Source: Actinophytocola algeriensis (GTDB lineage Bacteria; Actinomycetota; Actinomycetes; Mycobacteriales; Pseudonocardiaceae). From it: a DNA stretch of 64,000 bases. A model generated the notes under the pieces. That model was not told the DNA's origin and ran no database searches. It saw only the letters and a program-made list of their open reading frames with translations. The stretch lies in NCBI RefSeq assembly GCF_014203735.1, contig NZ_JACHJQ010000008.1, positions 186,001 through 250,000 on the forward strand, written 5' to 3'. Position numbers and translations under genes: made by a program. The stretch's first letter is position 1. Each line of letters begins with the position of its first letter. Positions 7,473 to 33,987 of this stretch are shown one piece after another.

Positions 7473-8315
7473 CTACTCGCGCGCCGCGCCGACCTTCCAG
7501 TAGCCGGAGAACATGATCCGGCGGCGGTCCACGCCCCGTTCCCTGACCAGGTGGCGGCGCAGCCCGGTGGCGATCGCGGACTCACCGCACAGCCACGCGT
7601 ATCCCAGGTCAGCCGTATCGGCGTCGGCGATCGCGGGCAGCAGCCGCGACCCGGGCGCCTCGTCGCCGCGGACCAGCCACGTCACCTGGCGGTCGCAGTC
7701 GATCGGCAGCCGGTAGCCGTCGTCCGGGACCTCGACGAACGCGTGGATGTCCGTGTCCTGGTGCGCCTCGAGGATCGCCGACAGCGCGGGCAGCGCGGTC
7801 TCGTCGGCGGCCACCAGCCGAGGGCCGGCCTGCGCCGGCTGGTAGGTGGCGTTGCCCGCCCGGAACCCCACCACCTGACCGGGCTCGGCCCGCGACGCCC
7901 ACCGCGTGCCGGGCCCGGCGTCGCCGTGGAGGATGAAGTCGACGTCGATCTCCGCGTCGGCGGCGCGCAGCTTGCGGATCGTGTACCAGCGCAGGTCCGG
8001 CCGCTGGTCCTCCGGCATTCTCCGGATGGCCTGCCGCACGTTGATGCGGTCCTCGCTCGGCATGGTGACCGCGGCCGCGCCCGCCGGTGGCATGAGCAGC
8101 CCGAAGTACTCGTCCGCGCCGGTGAGCGTGTGGCCCGCGAACTCGTCCGCCCGGAACGTGATCCGCCGGACGTACGGTGCCAGGTCGACCGTATTGACGA
8201 CGGTCATCGTGAACTGGTCGTACACCGCGCGCTGCGCGGGCGCGGCCATCACCAGCGACACGGCCTTGTCGAGCACCTTCATCTGCAGCCGCTCGAGCGT
8301 GGAGTAGTTAGGCAT
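7473..8315 (-). CDS. Siderophore-interacting FAD protein (ViuB-like ferric-siderophore reductase)
   Basis: Releases iron from imported ferric siderophores by NAD(P)H-driven reduction in the cytoplasm. The protein has 280 residues. An FAD-binding domain carries VRRITFRADEFAGH and the RWYTIRKLR flavin motif. A C-terminal SIP domain follows (LPALSAILEAHQDTDIHAFVEV ... YAWLCGESAIATGLRRHL). The ATG at 8315 lies inside an iron box and eight bases after the stop of the tetR gene. The iron-box placement indicates repression when iron is plentiful, as expected for this family. Confidence 0.9.
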   Translation of the reverse strand: MPNYSTLERLQMKVLDKAVSLVMAAPAQRAVYDQFTMTVVNTVDLAPYVRRITFRADEFAGHTLTGADEYFGLLMPPAGAAAVTMPSEDRINVRQAIRRMPEDQRPDLRWYTIRKLRAADAEIDVDFILHGDAGPGTRWASRAEPGQVVGFRAGNATYQPAQAGPRLVAADETALPALSAILEAHQDTDIHAFVEVPDDGYRLPIDCDRQVTWLVRGDEAPGSRLLPAIADADTADLGYAWLCGESAIATGLRRHLVRERGVDRRRIMFSGYWKVGAARE

Positions 8316-8326
8316 GCCTAACCTTA
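8308..8326 (-). promoter_or_regulatory. DtxR/IdeR-type iron box over the siderophore-interacting gene start
   Basis: On the minus strand the 19 bases TAAGGTTAGGCATGCCTAA match 16 of 19 positions of the consensus TWAGGTTAGSCTAACCTWA. The core TTAGGCATGCCTAA (8308-8321) is a perfect palindrome containing the ATG of the SIP gene. It also overlaps the stop codon of the upstream tetR gene. A bound Fe-DtxR/IdeR dimer here would block initiation or transcript elongation. Confidence 0.75.
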
Positions 8327-9571
8327 GCCGAAGCGGGCGAGAAGTCCATCCACCACGATCTCCAGCCCCAGCACCGCGAGACCCGGACGGGCGGGCGGAA
8401 TCGGCAGGTCCGCGGCCGCCGCGGTGCGGTTGGCGAACGTCTCGCCGTCGAACTTCTCGAACCGGCCGAGCACCGCGCCGTACAGGTGCTCCCACACGAT
8501 CCGCGACACGTCCGGGACGTCCGCCTCCGGCACACCCGCGGCGTGGAACGCGTCGAGCAGCCGCCGCACCACCGGCATCACCCTCGGCCCAGCCAGCCCG
8601 TCCAACGTGATCGCGAGGACCGACCACGGATCCGCCGCCAGCACCTCGTACGCGGCGGACACCAGCCCGAGGATCTCGGCCCTCGGGTCGTCGACCTTGT
8701 CCGGCACCACCATGTCCGCCGCGACCGCGTCCAGCATCGCGACCACCACGCCGTCACGGTCCCCGGCCACCTGCCGCACGGCCGTCATCGACGTGCCCAG
8801 CTCCTCGGCCACCGACCCGACGGACACCGCGTGCAGCCCGGCGCGGCGCGCCACGGTCCGCCCCGCCGCGGCGATCGCGTCCCGGTTCGGCGCGGTCGCC
8901 GCGGCGGGGCGGACCGTCACCGGCCGGCCGTACGACACCGTGGGCACCGGCTGGCCCATCCTGGCCGCGAACCCGTCGAGCATGATCGCGACCTTGTCGT
9001 CGAGCCAGCCGCGCCGCTCGAACCGAGACGCGTCCGGCCCCTCGTACAGCTCGCGCAGGCTGCGTCTGCCGCGCGGGGTGTCGAACACCCGGCCCATCCG
9101 GCGCACCCCGATCTCCGCCGCGATCGTCACGTCCGCCGCGAAGTCGACGGCGATCACGGCGTCCCGCGCGGACAACCCCGCCTCCACCAGCCCGACGACG
9201 CACTGGTCCGCGATCCCCAGCGCCTTGCCCGGCATGCACGGCACCTGGAGGACCGTCTCCGCCATCCCCGGGTGCCGTTCCAGGAACCGCCAGACCGCGT
9301 CCACGAACGACGTCACGAGCTCCCGCCAGCCCATGTCCGAGGAATCCGGCCAGTCGAACTCGCGCAACGCCAGGTCGAAGGCCGCGAGCAGCAGGTCGTC
9401 ACGGTCGTGGACGTACCGGTACAGCGTCGAGTGGCTGACGCCCAGCCGTCGCGCGACCACCGGCATCGACAGGTGCGGCAGACCCTCGGCCAACGCGGCC
9501 CTCGCCACGTCGTCCCTGGTCAGCGACGGTGGCCTGCCGGGGCGGCGAACGGCCCGGGACTCCGTGTTCAC
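8324..9571 (-). CDS. Tandem TetR-family regulator (two TetR domains in one chain)
   Basis: A 415-residue protein, about twice the usual TetR length. The first domain has a clear HTH (MPVVARRLGVSHSTLYRYVHDRDDLL, about 36-60) and a ligand domain. A second TetR-like N-terminal segment appears at about 230-280 (SVGSVAEELGTSMTAVRQVAGDRDGVV), followed by a second C-terminal helical domain. The second HTH is more diverged. One chain could act as a pseudo-dimer on a single operator. It lies directly upstream of, and close to, the siderophore-interacting gene (8-base gap) and divergent from nothing: the SDR gene behind it is also leftward, 13 bases upstream. Confidence 0.82.
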   Translation of the reverse strand: MNTESRAVRRPGRPPSLTRDDVARAALAEGLPHLSMPVVARRLGVSHSTLYRYVHDRDDLLLAAFDLALREFDWPDSSDMGWRELVTSFVDAVWRFLERHPGMAETVLQVPCMPGKALGIADQCVVGLVEAGLSARDAVIAVDFAADVTIAAEIGVRRMGRVFDTPRGRRSLRELYEGPDASRFERRGWLDDKVAIMLDGFAARMGQPVPTVSYGRPVTVRPAAATAPNRDAIAAAGRTVARRAGLHAVSVGSVAEELGTSMTAVRQVAGDRDGVVVAMLDAVAADMVVPDKVDDPRAEILGLVSAAYEVLAADPWSVLAITLDGLAGPRVMPVVRRLLDAFHAAGVPEADVPDVSRIVWEHLYGAVLGRFEKFDGETFANRTAAAADLPIPPARPGLAVLGLEIVVDGLLARFG

Positions 9572-9584
9572 CGAAGTACAGTAC

Positions 9585-10421
9585 CTACTCCACCGCCACC
9601 CCGTACCCCGCCGGCGGCGGCACCGCCTGCTCCGCGGCCCGGCTCACGTGCTCCCATTCCGCCCACGTCGCGAGCTTGCGGTTCGTCGTGTCGACGGCCA
9701 GGTCGTAGACCATGTCGCCGAGCAGCAGCCGCAACGGCGGGTCGTCGCTGCGGACCAGTTCCAGCACCCCGCGCGCGGCCAGCTCCGGCATGCTGTCCTT
9801 CGACCCCGCCGAGAACTGCTTCTCCAGCTCGGCCCGCAGGTCCGCGTAGTCCGGGTGCGGAGTGGTGGCGCGCAGACCCGACAGGTACAGGTCCGTCCAG
9901 TACCCGCCCGGTTCGACGATCGTCGTCTTCACCCCGAACCCCGCCGCCTCCGCCGCCAGCGCCTCGCTCATGCCCTCCAGCGCGAACTTGCTCGCGCTGT
10001 ACAGGCCGGTGAGCGGGAAGCCGCCCAGCGCGCCGATGCTCGAGATCTGCACCAGGTGACCGCCACCCTGCCCCCGCAGGTGCGGCAGGACCGCCTGCGT
10101 GACCCACAGCGGGCCGAAGAAGTTCACGTCCAGCTGGGCGCGCGCCTCCTCCTCGGTGAACTCCTCCACCATGCCCATCGCCAGGTAGCCGGCGTTGTTC
10201 ACGACCACGTCCAGCCGCCCGAAGTGCGCGACCGCGCGATCGACCGCCGCGTGCACGGCGTCCCGGTCGGTGACGTCCAGCCGGAACGCCAGGACGCGGT
10301 CGTCCTCCCTCGGTTCGATCGTGCGGGACACCGCGACCACCCGGTCCCCCTCGGCCAGAGCCGCCTCGGTGAAGGCCTGCCCCAGGCCGCGGCTGGCGCC
10401 GGTGATGAACCACGTACGCAT
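9585..10421 (-). CDS. Short-chain dehydrogenase/reductase
   Basis: A classical SDR of 278 residues with an NADP-type Rossmann loop TGASRGLG, the NNAG motif (VVVNNAGYLAMG), an SSIGALGGFPLTGLYSASKFA stretch giving the catalytic Ser and YxxxK, and the PG loop VEPGGYWTD. It is divergent from a TetR gene across a 17-bp palindrome, the classic repressor/target arrangement, so the TetR probably controls it. Substrate not predictable; many relatives act on ketones or aldehydes. Confidence 0.9.
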   Translation of the reverse strand: MRTWFITGASRGLGQAFTEAALAEGDRVVAVSRTIEPREDDRVLAFRLDVTDRDAVHAAVDRAVAHFGRLDVVVNNAGYLAMGMVEEFTEEEARAQLDVNFFGPLWVTQAVLPHLRGQGGGHLVQISSIGALGGFPLTGLYSASKFALEGMSEALAAEAAGFGVKTTIVEPGGYWTDLYLSGLRATTPHPDYADLRAELEKQFSAGSKDSMPELAARGVLELVRSDDPPLRLLLGDMVYDLAVDTTNRKLATWAEWEHVSRAAEQAVPPPAGYGVAVE

Positions 10422-27676: not shown

Positions 27677-28075
27677 CTAGCAGTTGACGTCGACGATCCA
27701 CACCCACGGCGTGACCCCGTGGACGTGCGCCCACTCGCCGTCGTCGTACCAGCCCAGCTGGACGAACACGTCGCAGCCGGGCACGCGGAGCTGGTCGACG
27801 TCGTCGATGCGCGTGGCCTCGTCGGACCACTCACCCGGGTACAACGTCTCGGTGTTGTCCGGGTTCGGCGTGCTGTTGTGGCCCGCCGAACTGACGTACA
27901 TCTTCCGGCTGGTCCCGTTGTAGACGGCCACGTCGAAGCCCTTGTCCATCGGCTCGACGGCGGCCGGCTCGGCAGCCGGTGCCGCTGTGGCCGCTGTGGC
28001 CGACGCCGTGCCGGGCAGCAGCACCACCACGAGCGCCGCGAACAACGCCAGTACCGCGGTCAACCTCGTCCTCAT
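27677..28075 (-). CDS. Small secreted protein
   Basis: A 132-residue protein from ATG 28075 with GGGGGAA upstream. Residues 1-27 form a Sec signal peptide (MRTRLTAVLALFAALVVVLLPGTASA) with an AxA-like cleavage site. After a Pro/Ala-rich linker, the mature part (about 45-132) reads as a compact beta domain with VAVYNGTSRKMYVSSAGHNS and two cysteines, one in the middle (VPGCDVF) and one at the end (VDVNC), suited to a disulfide. No enzyme motif. Divergent from the SARP/glycosidase-like regulator with a shared 204-bp gap, so it could be one of that regulator's targets. Confidence 0.75.
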   Translation of the reverse strand: MRTRLTAVLALFAALVVVLLPGTASATAATAAPAAEPAAVEPMDKGFDVAVYNGTSRKMYVSSAGHNSTPNPDNTETLYPGEWSDEATRIDDVDQLRVPGCDVFVQLGWYDDGEWAHVHGVTPWVWIVDVNC

Positions 28076-28102
28076 CGTTCTTCCCCCTTCGATCGGATGT
28101 GC

Positions 28103-28119
28103 CCGGACCCCCTGTCCGG
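28103..28119. promoter_or_regulatory. 17-bp palindrome in the secreted protein/SARP divergent gap
   Basis: CCGGAC-N5-GTCCGG lies in the gap between the two divergent genes, about 30 bp from the secreted-protein start. A looser TGACA-N14-TGTCA pair follows at about 28127-28150. These are operator candidates only. Confidence 0.35.
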
Positions 28120-28279
28120 ACGGCTCTGACACTGCCCTCGACCGCTGTCAATCGGCTGCCAAACGAATGACTGAGCGTCATGTCCGCAGGTCACGGCGGG
28201 GTTGCGGAACGCGGGACGGGCGTTGATCCTGGAGGGCGCGCGCCGGCGGGGGGCCGGCGCAGGTCGGGGGGAGCGTCCC

Positions 28280-30415
28280 GTGGTGGACGACGCACGTGTC
28301 AGGTTCGAGGTTCTCGGCCCGGTCCGGGCCACGGTGGCAGGAGAGCCGATCCCGCTCGGCGGGCCCAAACGCACCGCGCTGCTGGCGGCACTGTTGCTCG
28401 ACGCGGGCCGGGTGGTGTCGACCGACCGGCTGATCGCGGCGGTGTGGGAAGGCGACCCGCCCGCGTCGGCCCGGTCGGTGGTGCACGGCATCGTCCGGGA
28501 CCTGCGCCGGGCGGTGGCCGCCGCCGGGGTCGGCACCGAGGTGATCGCCACCCAGCGCCCCGGCTACCTGCTGCGGCCCGACGCGTGCACCACCGACGTC
28601 GGTGACTTCGAGCGGCTGCTCGCGCGAGCACGCGAACCGGGCGACACCGCCCGGCGGGCACGGCTGCTGCGCGACGCGCTCGCCCTGTGGGCAGGCCCAG
28701 CGCTCGACGGGATCGACGCCCCGATCGCGGCCACGGCCGCCACGGCACTGGAGGAACAGCGGCTCGCCGCCCTCGAGGAGCGGATCGACGGGGACCTCGA
28801 ACTCGGCAGGCACGCGACGGTGGTCGCCGAACTGACCAGGCTCGTCGAGGACTTCCCGCTGCGCGAACGGTTCCGCGGCCAGCTGATGCTGGCGCTCTAC
28901 CGGTCGGGCAGGCAGGCCGAGGCACTGGAGGAGTTCCGCCGCTGCAGGCGGTCCCTGGTGGCCGAGCTGGGCATCGAACCAGGTCACCGGCTGCGCGAGC
29001 TGGAACGCGCGATCCTCGCCGAGGACCCCCGGCTCGGCCGCGCGGAACCGCTCACCGCCCTACCCCGCCCGCGGGCCGCGGTGCGCGCACGAGTCACCGG
29101 GCCCCGGGTGAAGGGCGCGGTACCGGCACTCGCGCTCGTCGCCGGTGCGCTGCTAGCCGTACCCGCGTCCACGACCGACCCGGTACCCGCCGAGGACGTG
29201 GTCGCGGCCGCGCCGCAGCAGGTGGTCGGGCCGGCCTGGCAGCAGGAGCCGCCCGCCCGGCTGGACGACGCGTTGTTCGGCGTGACCATGAACAGCGACA
29301 GCGGGGCGATGCCGGACTTCCGGGTCGGCGCGGTGCGGCTGTGGGACAGCGCCACCCGCTGGGCGAACGTCGAACCCGAGCCCGGCCGGTACCGGTGGAA
29401 CCGGCTCGACCGGCTCGTCGCGGGCGCCGAGGCCGCCGGTCACCCGGTGCTCTACACGATGGGACTCGGTGCGGCGTGGACGAACCCGGCCGGTGCGCAC
29501 AGCCCGTACACGGACTCGTCGACCACCGCGGCGCCGGCCGACCGGTCCGCCTGGGACCGCTACGTCGGCCAGGTCGCACGTCGGTACGCGGGCCGCGTCG
29601 AGGCCTACGAGCTGTGGAATCTGGCCAACTCGCCGCGCTACTACACCGGCACGGTCGACGAGCTGGTCGAGCTGACCCGCCGTGCCGCCGCGATCATCCG
29701 GGCGGCCGACCCCGCCGCGACGGTGGTGTGCCCGTCGATGGGCGAGCTGTGGCAGGCGTCGTCGCGGGAGTACCTGCACCGGTTCGCGCTCGCGGGCGGC
29801 TACCGGCACTGCGACGTCGCGGCGGTGAAGCTGCACCAGCGGCACGCCGAGGACACCCCGGAGTCGATGGCCGAGCTGGCCGAGGAGATCGACCGGGTCT
29901 TCCACCGCGCGGGCGTCCACAAACCGCTGTGGAACACCGGGAGCACCTACAACATCGCCCTCGAACCGCCCTTGTCGCAGGCCGACGCGGACAACTACGG
30001 CGTGCGTTTCTACCTCGTCGGCATCCACGCGCGGTACGACCGGATGTACTTCTACAACTGGGGGAGCCGCGGCATCCCGCTCGTGCTGCAGCCCGAGGGC
30101 GGTGAACCGACCCGCGCCGCCCGCAACATCGGGACGTTCGCCGGGTGGCTCTCCGGTGCCCGGGTCCGGTCGTGTTCGCACGGACGCGACGCCGGGCTGC
30201 CGCCGCGAGTCTGGGAGTGCCGGTTCGTGCTCGCCGGCGCCGAGCAGGCACGCGTGCTGTGGACCGACGACGGCGAGGCGGAGCTGCCGACGTGGCCCAC
30301 GGCCGCGCGGGTGCACGACCTGAGCGGTGCGCGGACCTCGCTCGACGGGCGGCCCACCGTGCGGGTCGGCGAGAGCCCGGTCATGGTGGTCGACAGGCCT
30401 GGGCACACCGACTGA
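28280..30415 (+). CDS. Membrane-anchored SARP regulator fused to a glycosidase-like (GH39-type) domain without catalytic Glu
   Basis: A 711-residue chain from GTG 28280 (GGGGGGAG seven bases upstream). Residues about 5-95 are the SARP winged helix (FEVLGPVRATVAGEPIPLGG) and 100-245 the BTAD domain. A hydrophobic helix at about 280-296 is followed by a signal-like PAS linker and then a (beta/alpha)8 glycosidase-like region (about 330-640) with VEPEPGRYRWNRLDRLV and VARRYAGRVEAYELWN. In clan GH-A enzymes the acid/base Glu follows ELWN; here it is Leu448 (ELWNLANS). The nucleophile in PLWxTE is replaced by Gly554 (PLWNTGST). I infer a cytoplasmic DNA-binding half and an external sugar-sensing half. 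It precedes the molybdenum hydroxylase genes by 46 bp. Confidence 0.85.
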   Translation: MVDDARVRFEVLGPVRATVAGEPIPLGGPKRTALLAALLLDAGRVVSTDRLIAAVWEGDPPASARSVVHGIVRDLRRAVAAAGVGTEVIATQRPGYLLRPDACTTDVGDFERLLARAREPGDTARRARLLRDALALWAGPALDGIDAPIAATAATALEEQRLAALEERIDGDLELGRHATVVAELTRLVEDFPLRERFRGQLMLALYRSGRQAEALEEFRRCRRSLVAELGIEPGHRLRELERAILAEDPRLGRAEPLTALPRPRAAVRARVTGPRVKGAVPALALVAGALLAVPASTTDPVPAEDVVAAAPQQVVGPAWQQEPPARLDDALFGVTMNSDSGAMPDFRVGAVRLWDSATRWANVEPEPGRYRWNRLDRLVAGAEAAGHPVLYTMGLGAAWTNPAGAHSPYTDSSTTAAPADRSAWDRYVGQVARRYAGRVEAYELWNLANSPRYYTGTVDELVELTRRAAAIIRAADPAATVVCPSMGELWQASSREYLHRFALAGGYRHCDVAAVKLHQRHAEDTPESMAELAEEIDRVFHRAGVHKPLWNTGSTYNIALEPPLSQADADNYGVRFYLVGIHARYDRMYFYNWGSRGIPLVLQPEGGEPTRAARNIGTFAGWLSGARVRSCSHGRDAGLPPRVWECRFVLAGAEQARVLWTDDGEAELPTWPTAARVHDLSGARTSLDGRPTVRVGESPVMVVDRPGHTD

Positions 30416-30461: not shown

Positions 30462-30944
30462 GTGGAAGCCACGATCACGATCACGGTGGACGGCCGGCAG
30501 CGCACGGTCGCGGTCGACACCCGCACCACGCTGCTCGACGCGCTGCGGGACCGGTTGGCGGTGACGGCACCCAAGAAAGGCTGTGACCACGGGCAGTGCG
30601 GCTCGTGCACGGTCCTGCTCGACGGGCGGCGGGTCCTGTCGTGCCTCGCGCTCGCGGTCGCGCACGACGGGGCCGAGGTGGTGACCGCCGCCGGGCTCGA
30701 CAACGACCGGCTGCGGGAGACGTTCCTCGACAACGACGCGTTCCAGTGCGGGTACTGCACTCCCGGCCAGCTGTGCTCCGCCGCCGGCATGCTCGACGAG
30801 CTGAAGGCCGGGTGGCCCAGCGCCGTCACCGACGGCGAACCCACCCTGTCCGCGTCGGAGATCCGGGAGCGGATGGCGGGCAACCTGTGCCGCTGCGGTG
30901 CCTACGTCGGCATCGTCGCCGCCATCCAGGAGGCCGGCCGGTGA
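30462..30944 (+). CDS. Molybdenum hydroxylase small subunit, two [2Fe-2S] clusters
   Basis: Electron-transfer subunit of a xanthine-dehydrogenase/aldehyde-oxidase-type enzyme, 160 residues. The first cluster is held by CDHGQCGSC plus a later Cys (VLSC), the second by CGYCTPGQ and CRCGAY. GTG 30462 is used; there is no Tat signal peptide, unlike PaoA of E. coli, so the complex should be cytoplasmic. Its TGA overlaps the GTG of the FAD subunit (GTGA). Confidence 0.92.
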   Translation: MEATITITVDGRQRTVAVDTRTTLLDALRDRLAVTAPKKGCDHGQCGSCTVLLDGRRVLSCLALAVAHDGAEVVTAAGLDNDRLRETFLDNDAFQCGYCTPGQLCSAAGMLDELKAGWPSAVTDGEPTLSASEIRERMAGNLCRCGAYVGIVAAIQEAGR

Positions 30945-31930
30945 TCCCCTTCGACTACCGCCGTGCCGAGAACCCCGCCGGGGCGGTCGCCACCGTGGCC
31001 GGCGCGCCGGGTGCCGTGTACCTCGCCGGTGGCACCAACCTCGTGGACCACCTCAAGCTCGACGTCGCCCGGCCCGACCTGGTCGTCGACGTCACCGGGC
31101 TGCCCTTCGACCGGGTCGAGCCGCGCGCCGACGGCGGGCTGCGGGTCGGCGCGACCGTCCGCAACAGCGACCTCGCCGCCCACCCCGTGGTGCGCGAGCG
31201 CTACCCGGTCCTGTCGCAGGCGCTGCTCGCCGGCGCCTCCGGCCAGCTCCGCAACATGGCCACCACCGGCGGCAACCTGCTGCAACGCACCCGCTGCCCG
31301 TACTTCCAGGACGTCACCACCGCCTGCAACAAACGCGACCCCGGCAGCGGCTGCTCCGCGATCGAGGGCTACCACCGCTACCACGCGATCCTCGGTGCCT
31401 CCCCGGACTGCGTCGCCGTGCACCCGTCCGACATGGCCGTCGCGCTCGTCGCGCTGGACGCCACCGTGCGGGTGCTCGGCCGCCACGGCGAGCGGGACAT
31501 CCCCGTCGACGCGCTGCACCGGCTGCCCGGCGACCGGCCCGACCGCGACACCATCCTCGAGCACGGCGACCTCATCACCGCGGTCGACCTGCCCGCGCCG
31601 CTGTCGGTCCGGTCCGCCTACCGGAAGGTGCGCGAGCGGTCGTCGTTCGCGTTCGCGCTGGTGTCCGTCGCGGCCGTGGCCGACCTGCGGGACGGCCGGG
31701 TCCAGGACTGCCGTATCGCCTTGGGCGGGGTCGCGCACAAACCGTGGCGCGCGCACGCCGCCGAGGACGTGCTGCGCGCCGGGGAACCGTCCGAGCAGCT
31801 GTTCACCAGGGCCGCCGACGCCGAGCTGGCTGGTGCGAAACCCTTGCCCGACAACGGGTTCAAGGTCGCGATGGCGCGCGGCGCGCTTGTCGCCACACTG
31901 CGCGGGCTCACCACGGAGGGCACGGCATGA
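30941..31930 (+). CDS. Molybdenum hydroxylase FAD subunit with an extra Fe-S motif (PaoB-like)
   Basis: A 329-residue FAD-binding subunit. The pyrophosphate-binding loop is VYLAGGTNLVDHLKLDV, and the isoalloxazine region includes GQLRNMATTGGNLLQ. Directly after it lies TRCPYFQDVTTACNKRDPGSGC, a cysteine-rich insertion that holds a [4Fe-4S] cluster in PaoB-type and 4-hydroxybenzoyl-CoA-reductase-like subunits. It starts on the stop of the small subunit and its own stop overlaps the large-subunit ATG, so all three are translationally coupled. Confidence 0.92.
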   Translation: MIPFDYRRAENPAGAVATVAGAPGAVYLAGGTNLVDHLKLDVARPDLVVDVTGLPFDRVEPRADGGLRVGATVRNSDLAAHPVVRERYPVLSQALLAGASGQLRNMATTGGNLLQRTRCPYFQDVTTACNKRDPGSGCSAIEGYHRYHAILGASPDCVAVHPSDMAVALVALDATVRVLGRHGERDIPVDALHRLPGDRPDRDTILEHGDLITAVDLPAPLSVRSAYRKVRERSSFAFALVSVAAVADLRDGRVQDCRIALGGVAHKPWRAHAAEDVLRAGEPSEQLFTRAADAELAGAKPLPDNGFKVAMARGALVATLRGLTTEGTA

Positions 31931-33987
31931 CCGGCATGATCGGCACCGCACTGCCCCGCCGCGACGGCCCGGCCAAGCTGCACGGCACGGCGCCCTACGC
32001 CTACGAACACGACGTCGAGCACCCCGCGTACGCGCACCTCGTGCAGGCCACGATCGCCCGCGGCCGGGTCACCGGCTTCGACCTGTCGGCCGCGAACGCG
32101 CTCGACGACGTCCTCGCGATCCTCACCCACGAGAACGCACCCCGCCTCGAGGACACCGGCAACGCCGAACTGGCCGTGCTGCAGGACGACGCGGTCGCCT
32201 TCCGCGGGCAGGTGGTCGCGGTGGTCGTCGCCGAGACACCGGAGACCGCGCGCCAGGCAGCCAACGCGATACAGGTGACCTACGACAGCGAACCCCACGA
32301 GACGCGGCTGCGTGCCGACGACGCCGGGCTGTACACGCCGGAGAAGGTCAACCCGGCGCTGCCCACCGAAAGCTCCCAGGGTGACGTCGAGTCCGCGCTC
32401 GCCTCGGCCGACGTGACGGTCGACGAGGTCTACACGACGCCGATGGAACACAACAACCCGATGGAGCCGCACACGACCGTGGCGCACTGGGACGGCGACC
32501 GGCTCACCCTGTACGACTCGACGCAGGGCGTGCACCCGCTGCGTTCGGCGGTCGCGTCGCTGTTCGGCCTCGACGAGGACCGCGTCCGCGTGGTGGCCCC
32601 GTACGTCGGCGGCGGGTTCGGCAGCAAGGGCCAGCCGCACGCACCCGTCGCGCTGGCGGTGCTGTGCGCGCGGCACCTCACCGGCAGGCCGGTGAAGCTC
32701 GCGATCACCCGTCAGCAGATGTTCTCCCTGGTCGGCTACCGCACCCCGACGATCCAGCGGATCCGGCTCGCGGCCGACCACACCGGCGCCCTGACCGGCA
32801 TCGCCGTGGACGTCGTCGAACAGACCGCGCGCGTCAAGGAGTTCGCCGAGCAGACCGCGACACCGAGCCGGTCGATGTACGCCGCACCGCACCGCCGCAC
32901 CGGGCACCGGCTGGCCGAACTGGACGTGCCGGTGCCGTCGTGGATGCGCGCACCGGGCGAGTGCCCTGGCATGTTCGGGCCCGAGGTCGCGATGGACGAG
33001 CTGGCGCAGCGGTGCGAGGTCGACCCGATCGCGCTGCGGATCCGCAACGAGCCGGAGCTCGACCCGGACAGCGGCAAGCCGTTCTCCAGCCGCAACCTGA
33101 TCGGGTGCCTCGAGGACGGCGCCCGCCGGTTCGGCTGGGACGCCCGCGACCCGCGACCCCGCACCCGGCTGGAAGACGGCTGGTGGATCGGCACGGGGGT
33201 CGCGTCGTCGACCTACCCGGTGCACATGTCACCCGGCTCGGTCGCGGAGATCCGGTACACCGCCGACGGCCGCTACGAGGTGGCGATCGGTGCGGCGGAC
33301 CTCGGCACCGGCACGTGGACGGTGCTCGCGCAGGTCGCGGCGGACCGGCTCGACGTGCCGGTCGACCGGGTCGAGCTGCGCATCGGCGACACCGACCTGC
33401 CGAACGCGACGGTCGCGGGCGGGTCGTCCGGTGTCGCGTCGTGGGGCTCGGCGATCGCCGACGCGGCAGGCGCGTTCCGCGACAAGTTCGGCACCGACCC
33501 GGCGGCGGGCGACGAGGCGTCCGGGCGGACGCCCGACCTGTCGGAGACGTTCGCGATGCGGGCGTTCGGTGCGCAGTTCGCCGAGGTGGCGGTGCACGCC
33601 GACACCGGTGAGGTCGAGGTGCGCAGGCTGCTGGGCGTGTTCGCCGCCGGCCGCATCGTCAACCCGCGCACGGCCCGGTCCCAGTTCCTCGGCGGCATGA
33701 CCATGGGCCTGTCGATGGCGCTGCACGAACAGTCGGTGATGGACCACCGCTACGGCCACGTGGTGAACCACGACCTGGCCGAGTACCACATCGCGACGTG
33801 CGCGGACGTCCGCTCGCTGGAGGCGCACTGGCTCGACGAGACCGACGAGCACGTCAACCCGCTGGGCACCAAGGGGATCGGTGAGATCGGCATCGTCGGC
33901 ACGGCCGCCGCGGTGGCGAACGCCGCCTGGCACGCGACCGGGGTCCGGGTCCGCGACCTGCCGATCACCCCGGACCGGTTCCTGTGA
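31927..33987 (+). CDS. Molybdenum hydroxylase large subunit (molybdopterin cytosine dinucleotide type)
   Basis: Catalytic subunit of 686 residues. YVGGGFGSKGQPHAPVALAVL is the conserved Moco-binding loop, and the base-catalytic Glu is present near the C-terminus in GTKGIGEIGIVG. The compact length and subunit order (2Fe-2S, FAD, Moco) match PaoABC/YagTSR aldehyde oxidoreductases. The substrate is probably an aromatic aldehyde or N-heterocycle; this is family inference. No maturation factor (PaoD/XdhC) is seen nearby. The 3' end overlaps the converging PrnB-like gene by 23 bp. Confidence 0.92.
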   Translation: MTGMIGTALPRRDGPAKLHGTAPYAYEHDVEHPAYAHLVQATIARGRVTGFDLSAANALDDVLAILTHENAPRLEDTGNAELAVLQDDAVAFRGQVVAVVVAETPETARQAANAIQVTYDSEPHETRLRADDAGLYTPEKVNPALPTESSQGDVESALASADVTVDEVYTTPMEHNNPMEPHTTVAHWDGDRLTLYDSTQGVHPLRSAVASLFGLDEDRVRVVAPYVGGGFGSKGQPHAPVALAVLCARHLTGRPVKLAITRQQMFSLVGYRTPTIQRIRLAADHTGALTGIAVDVVEQTARVKEFAEQTATPSRSMYAAPHRRTGHRLAELDVPVPSWMRAPGECPGMFGPEVAMDELAQRCEVDPIALRIRNEPELDPDSGKPFSSRNLIGCLEDGARRFGWDARDPRPRTRLEDGWWIGTGVASSTYPVHMSPGSVAEIRYTADGRYEVAIGAADLGTGTWTVLAQVAADRLDVPVDRVELRIGDTDLPNATVAGGSSGVASWGSAIADAAGAFRDKFGTDPAAGDEASGRTPDLSETFAMRAFGAQFAEVAVHADTGEVEVRRLLGVFAAGRIVNPRTARSQFLGGMTMGLSMALHEQSVMDHRYGHVVNHDLAEYHIATCADVRSLEAHWLDETDEHVNPLGTKGIGEIGIVGTAAAVANAAWHATGVRVRDLPITPDRFL

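Follow-up and report, generated by a model that had tools for sequence, protein, structure and literature searches.

The gene at 28280–30415 (plus strand) of the 64,000-nucleotide stretch of Actinophytocola algeriensis DNA analyzed here (the window) codes for a 711-aa protein in which a SARP activator is joined, through a predicted transmembrane segment, to a GH39-like domain lacking both catalytic glutamates. We consider it probable that this protein is a one-component transmembrane regulator, the dead barrel of which binds a ligand outside the cell, and that it activates the divergently oriented gene for a small secreted protein. Sequence comparisons establish the order of the domains, the loss of the glutamates, the occurrence of two alternative heads on one sensor, the linkage to secreted-protein genes, and the presence of a live-type twin in three SARP-headed loci.

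The SARP head

The ORF starts with a GTG codon at 28280, with GGGGGGAG a short way upstream. Its N-terminus carries a winged-helix DNA-binding domain (Trans_reg_C, residues 28–97, 28361–28570, plus strand; Pfam E 9e-10, 39 bits against a cut-off of 26.2) followed by a BTAD domain (residues 105–246, 28592–29017, plus strand; E 3e-44, 151 bits against a cut-off of 22.1), which is the succession found in the AfsR/SARP family, and both scores bear out the N-terminal SARP/BTAD assignment made in an earlier reading of the same DNA (the sequence-only reading). Activators of this family bind direct heptamer repeats and activate transcription; to our knowledge, they are otherwise soluble. The best NCBIfam models for the protein, AfsR and BagI/FevR, score far below their own cut-offs, and all glycosidase matches of its C-terminal half stay below the Pfam threshold. 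The whole 9.7-Mb genome yields 48 BTAD matches, amounting to a large SARP set.

A GH39-like barrel without catalytic glutamates

Residues 313–703 (29216–30388, plus strand) correspond to a predicted pseudo-GH39 barrel with a C-terminal beta domain, and include the conserved Cys484, Cys511, Cys632 and Cys647. An AlphaFold2 model (mean pLDDT 73.5, pTM 0.77) was made for the C-terminal part from ten input rows, of which three were short fragments; some of its loops have pLDDT <50. Foldseek ranked PslG (5bx9; E 9e-21, TM-score 0.72) as its best PDB match, ahead of other clan GH-A enzymes (GH39/GH30/GH51/GH44). The clan GH-A-type barrel proposed earlier was thus recovered by structure prediction; given the few rows and the low-pLDDT loops, both substitutions in its active site are supported by the sequence alignment more than by the model. 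The GH39 family model PF01229 reaches 11.8 bits, below its cut-off of 26, and phmmer matched PslG at E 5e-4, with its WNEPN motif opposite WNLAN in the A. algeriensis protein. Leu448 occupies the position of the acid/base glutamate (29621–29623, plus strand, codon CTG; WNLAN for WNEPN), and Gly554 that of the nucleophile (29939–29941, plus strand, codon GGG; NTG for NTE/DTE), exactly as had been read from the sequence. Fold and motif positions are those of PslG/GH39-type hydrolases, whereas the sensor domain is devoid of both catalytic glutamates, of which PslG, according to extracts of PMC9075953, needs its E165 and E276.

In the alignment, glutamate is found at both positions in all 27 active-type rows, comprising 24 distant relatives from a class-wide search (L081–L104, 27–34% identity) and three tandem copies described below. 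The close set consists of 82 distinct rows, including the A. algeriensis protein, mostly at 42–54% identity; position 448 is taken there by Leu (28 rows), Met (19), Phe (11), Tyr and His (5 each), Ser (4), Ile (3), Gln, Val and Ala (2 each) and Thr (1), with no Glu, and position 554 by Gly in 81 rows and Ser in one. Fragments and broken copies (L040–L042, L075, L080, L168, L197–L201) were removed before the alignment of both positions, and broken L169 and distant L170–L175 before the 82-row count; among those excluded, L080, a fragment with an internal stop, has Asp at position 554, and L169 has Gln there, downstream of its break. Two trees set the close rows apart from the active-type ones as a single clade (100/100; 100/99). 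Judged by alignment and phylogeny, the loss of the active site is genuine and ancient.

The same alignments indicate that the sensor domain is under constraint, not decaying, since 47 columns are invariant across the 42 family proteins, and many of the expected core and pocket positions (R353, W355, W361, W400, W446, W551, R576, Y592 and W594) are common to close and active-type rows. Cys632 and Cys647 are also common to both (27/27 active-type rows), and Cys484 and Cys511 are present in 82/82 close rows and 0/27 active-type rows. Several active-type relatives have a signal-peptide-like N-terminal stretch.

Membrane segment and topology

The most hydrophobic 19-residue stretch of the protein covers residues 279–297 (29114–29170, plus strand; mean Kyte-Doolittle 1.87), in close agreement with the helix of about 17 residues placed earlier at 280–296. 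The 15 residues preceding it are basic, with a net charge of +5, the 15 following it acidic, at −3, and a DNA-binding domain and a transmembrane segment, as predicted by hydropathy, are thereby combined in one protein. Hydropathy alone was rejected as proof of a membrane helix: a 19-residue stretch scoring at least 1.6 is present somewhere in 12 of 20 other SARP ORFs of the A. algeriensis genome, several such stretches falling mid-way in a long C-terminal part. Both this result and the shortness of the segment in the 711-aa protein count against our reading. Since the Kyte-Doolittle score is unspecific by itself, the argument for a membrane helix was built on the family instead. Of 41 relatives, 39 carry a hydrophobic segment (1.55–3.06) that sits between head and sensor, in the corresponding position with respect to the latter, and the 15 residues preceding it carry a positive net charge in 36 of those 39. 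The putative disulfide pairing of the conserved cysteines would indicate an extracytoplasmic domain. We infer that the SARP head is cytoplasmic and that the sensor domain lies outside the membrane. The one-component, membrane-spanning layout with a dead GH39-like outer domain, which the sequence-only reading had put forward for a single protein, gains support from a family of the same architecture with four conserved cysteines.

One sensor, two DNA-binding heads

The close domain was found in 48 of the 390 genomes of A. algeriensis's family, its own genome included, and in none of five other genomes of its genus. In f31, a family that putatively contains Streptosporangiaceae, judging by L077, which agrees with L038 from Microbispora in match and open-frame length, 32 of 279 genomes yielded matches, in a few cases solely of the distant kind, and a scan of named genomes returned six close loci, in Pseudofrankia, Rhizohabitans, Sinosporangium, Dactylosporangium (two) and Microbispora; the pseudoenzyme sensor is found across several actinomycete families. 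HTH_31 was matched at E 0.1 or better in 39 of the 42 family proteins scanned and BTAD in one, that of A. algeriensis; the other two proteins are in all likelihood L038 and L077, which lack an HTH. Together with the hydrophobic segment in 39/41, this makes the succession of XRE head, membrane helix and dead GH39-like sensor the usual form. The 711-aa protein has the Gly554 and Cys484/511/632/647 of that form, with BTAD instead of the XRE-type head, and is therefore classed as a SARP-headed variant. A sensor domain without a recognizable head is present in L038 and in L164/L208; in L208, a small-protein gene is located immediately upstream of the headless sensor, on the same strand.

The search of genomes for the same fusion, suggested by the sequence-only reading, was productive. 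Five SARP heads, none of them accompanied by an XRE head, were found among 57 further loci (L145–L201), and the SARP-headed loci beyond A. algeriensis, three intact and two broken, belong to Streptosporangiaceae-type genomes. In the intact genes (L203, L204 and L205; 743–756 aa), SARP head and sensor are read in a single open frame and are in each case separated by a hydrophobic segment (1.6–2.25); in L202 they occupy separate frames, and L206 has a fragmented gene. In both trees the A. algeriensis protein is the first of the close rows to branch off (99/91; 83/81), but an arrangement with all six SARP rows as a single clade was not rejected (p-AU 0.53); either head, SARP or XRE, may have come first.

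Live-type twins of the pseudoenzyme

The SARP-headed sensor of L202, L203 and L205 is directly followed, on the same strand and after a gap of 96–146 bp, by the gene for an HTH-less GH39-like paralogue with both catalytic glutamates (L202 4459–5772, L203 8023–9417 and L205 8444–9757, all minus strand). These live-type twins are 437–464 aa long, have a signal-peptide-like start and the motifs ELWNEATHP and WDTETTEE, each with its Glu, and are 40–41% identical to the A. algeriensis sensor domain; the three form the sister group to the entire close set (100/100). Dead sensor and live-type copy lie in tandem at these three loci. It may be that a secreted hydrolase was duplicated, that one copy lost both glutamates and became tethered through the membrane to an activator, so as to report on the polymer cleaved by the live copy, that both copies have stayed together in some genomes, and that the head was exchanged between XRE and SARP types over an unchanged sensor; we hold this scenario tentatively, at slightly less than an even chance. 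The A. algeriensis genome itself contains no live sensor paralogue (its next-best match is partial, E 0.002), which counts against our reading. At the position of the live copy, L204 has a lipoprotein-like gene (7526–8524, minus strand), the start of which resembles, by eye only, that of the live-type copy, as if the latter had been deleted.

A small secreted protein as recurrent partner

The gene divergent from the regulator (27677–28075, minus strand) codes for a small secreted protein of 132 aa with a signal-peptide-like N-terminus and a D-x-D motif, and the region between the two genes (28076–28279) is the likely site of action of the regulator. No direct repeat of at least 7 bases was found in 28070–28285, which counts against our reading and is weak evidence either way. 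The 132-aa protein is single-copy in the A. algeriensis genome (next match E 0.14), has no relative in Pfam or the PDB and no convincing one in PHROG, and yielded an unusable model (mean pLDDT 54, pTM 0.48); one Asn and the D-x-D are invariant over 22 small-protein rows.

In the strictest test of linkage, the single mature sequence was used in phmmer against 33 large sensor loci and retrieved five relatives, 5/5 of them no farther than 2.5 kb from the sensor (Fisher p 0.013). Leave-one-out profiles gave a match at E <1e-3 in 18 of the 33 loci and one more at 0.01, the training set coming from an iterated search seeded with the A. algeriensis protein, and the exclusion extending only to hand-listed near-duplicates, so that one near-identical row remained for L128. 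All 18 matches adjoin the sensor gene, 13 divergently, two upstream on the same strand, two downstream and one convergently. The 14 loci without a recognizable small protein, which include every one of the five SARP loci from the other family, count against our reading. A profile lacking the A. algeriensis row, its rows having been chosen by similarity to the A. algeriensis protein and its training set originally found from it, produced one match in 3,198 ORFs of 51 control sources, namely A. algeriensis's own gene. Over the 390 genomes, the profile marked 59 places in 48 genomes, 17 of them, mostly training rows, no farther than 3 kb from a sensor; sensor and small protein are both present in 25 genomes (chance p 1e-13, uncorrected for kinship). 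The 42 places away from a sensor also count against our reading, and indicate that the small-protein family is broader than the pair. The idea that these far copies lie beside some other XRE membrane regulator was rejected: 20 of the 42 far places contained just two XRE-like ORFs, both in L211 and differently built. Ordinary neighborhood clustering of 27 loci left four clusters present in at least three loci, the sensor and three seemingly incidental ones, and missed the small partner, which came to light only with a profile.

The secreted-type genes at these loci vary in build. In L130, the small-protein domain is followed by a ricin-B lectin domain (8767–10008, plus strand; E 5e-16), an arrangement that L067 resembles by eye. 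The gene divergent from the XRE-headed sensor in L138 (1283–7195, minus strand) codes for a very long RHS-type protein with a C-terminal tail matching the small-protein profile, and the adjacent secreted-type gene of L144 is likewise very long and RHS-like. In L137 (5629–6750, minus strand) and L140 (8734–9762, plus strand), a PLD-like gene is divergent from the sensor, and the small protein is absent there.

Of the two candidate targets named in the sequence-only reading, linkage to the sensor in 18/33 loci speaks for the divergent secreted protein. The other, the PaoABC-like operon for a molybdenum hydroxylase that lies downstream (30462–33987, plus strand), was rejected as a conserved partner, as it had no match at E 1e-5 near sensor relatives in the 33 loci (532 kb). 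The XRE-headed relatives, the live-type tandem twin and the role of the divergent gene as a recurrent partner all go beyond that reading.

Proposed mechanism and alternatives

In the mechanism that we propose, the SARP head (winged helix plus BTAD) would lie in the cytoplasm, followed by one membrane helix and, on the outside, by the GH39-like barrel, catalytically dead and stabilized by one or two disulfides. The barrel would bind, without cutting it, a ligand outside the cell, for which a glycan or its cleavage product is the likeliest candidate, and binding would alter the oligomeric state or the geometry of the SARP head, which would then activate 27677–28075, its presumed target, across 28076–28279, and perhaps its own gene too. 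Glycan sensing by the outer domain, as proposed in the sequence-only reading, is plausible.

The same anatomy could operate through ligand-triggered cleavage in or near the membrane, releasing the SARP head in the manner of RsgI. Extracts of PMC12203970 describe for RsgI of Clostridium thermocellum the same order of inner regulatory domain, one helix and outer carbohydrate-binding, sensing domain, with signaling through proteolysis by RseP and ClpXP; RsgI, as presented in those extracts, is an anti-sigma factor, whereas the 711-aa protein is of the DNA-binding activator type, and the two are likened by layout, not by sequence. We regard such cleavage as possible, if rather doubtful. It is unlikely that the outer domain reads a protein, with the small secreted protein, or its complex with a wall polymer, serving as ligand or co-sensor and the barrel as a protein-binding scaffold. 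ToxS and VtrC, which play this part for their partners, offer a model; the linkage of the small protein is conserved, some small proteins have acquired a ricin-B lectin domain (L130), and a dead enzyme is not required to bind substrate. Against this, no small protein is found beside 14/33 sensor genes, the neighbor may instead be PLD-like (L137, L140) or very long and RHS-like (L138, L144), and the core pocket residues are retained; because the adjacent secreted-type gene varies, a regulated target fits better than a fixed partner.

Two other explanations concern the membrane and the head. If the hydrophobic segment were not inserted, the protein would be a soluble cytoplasmic SARP with the dead barrel as an intracellular ligand-binding domain, which would agree with a segment of just 17–19 residues, with the comparable hydrophobicity of soluble SARPs of the A. 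algeriensis genome, and with the description of PslG as intracellular in extracts of PMC9075953. We find this highly improbable, as the segment recurs at the same place in 39/41 relatives, with a basic head side in 36/39, under unrelated heads; moreover, two of the four conserved cysteines are common to secreted-looking relatives, and the live-type twins start with a signal-peptide-like stretch. The XRE-type head with one helix also resembles RodZ in layout, and the membrane-bound head could be a scaffold and not a transcription factor. This is hardly credible when a BTAD/winged-helix activator replaces that head in six genes, a swap that is sensible only with DNA binding as the output, and when secreted-protein genes are divergently linked. 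The one-component regulator with a ligand-binding dead barrel is the reading that we retain.

Relation to known regulators and significance

Transmembrane transcription regulators are a known and widespread kind, most of them using a few common heads, as set out in extracts of Demey et al. 2023 (PMC10269533), the main text of which contains none of the terms BTAD, XRE and “glyco”. Like the 711-aa protein, one-component regulators of the ToxR-CadC type combine a cytoplasmic DNA-binding head, one helix and an outer sensor; in contrast to that type (PMC10269533), the head of the present family is SARP/BTAD or XRE, and the sensor is a dead glycoside hydrolase. With the AfsR/SARP family the protein has the winged helix and BTAD in common, whereas the predicted membrane helix and outer pseudoenzyme stand where AfsR/SARP proteins have nothing or NB-ARC/TPR. 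In the largely open-access literature searched, no account of a membrane SARP or of an HTH-glycosidase sensor was found. The membrane-bound SARP/XRE proteins with a dead glycoside hydrolase sensor are thus likely to constitute an apparently undescribed family of surface sensors, within the established kind of transmembrane regulators.

SARPs activate many antibiotic pathways in actinomycetes, and the route by which an outside signal reaches them is mostly obscure. A SARP anchored in the membrane and equipped with an outer sensor of its own would provide a direct path from a surface polymer to gene activation. The scenario of a duplicated hydrolase, if true, would represent a new class of membrane-bound SARP together with a direct sensing pair of enzyme and pseudoenzyme. 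The family offers a natural experiment, in which one sensor carries two swapped heads and, in three loci, a live-type enzyme lies beside the dead copy; the substrate of that enzyme, when identified, would predict the ligand of the sensor.
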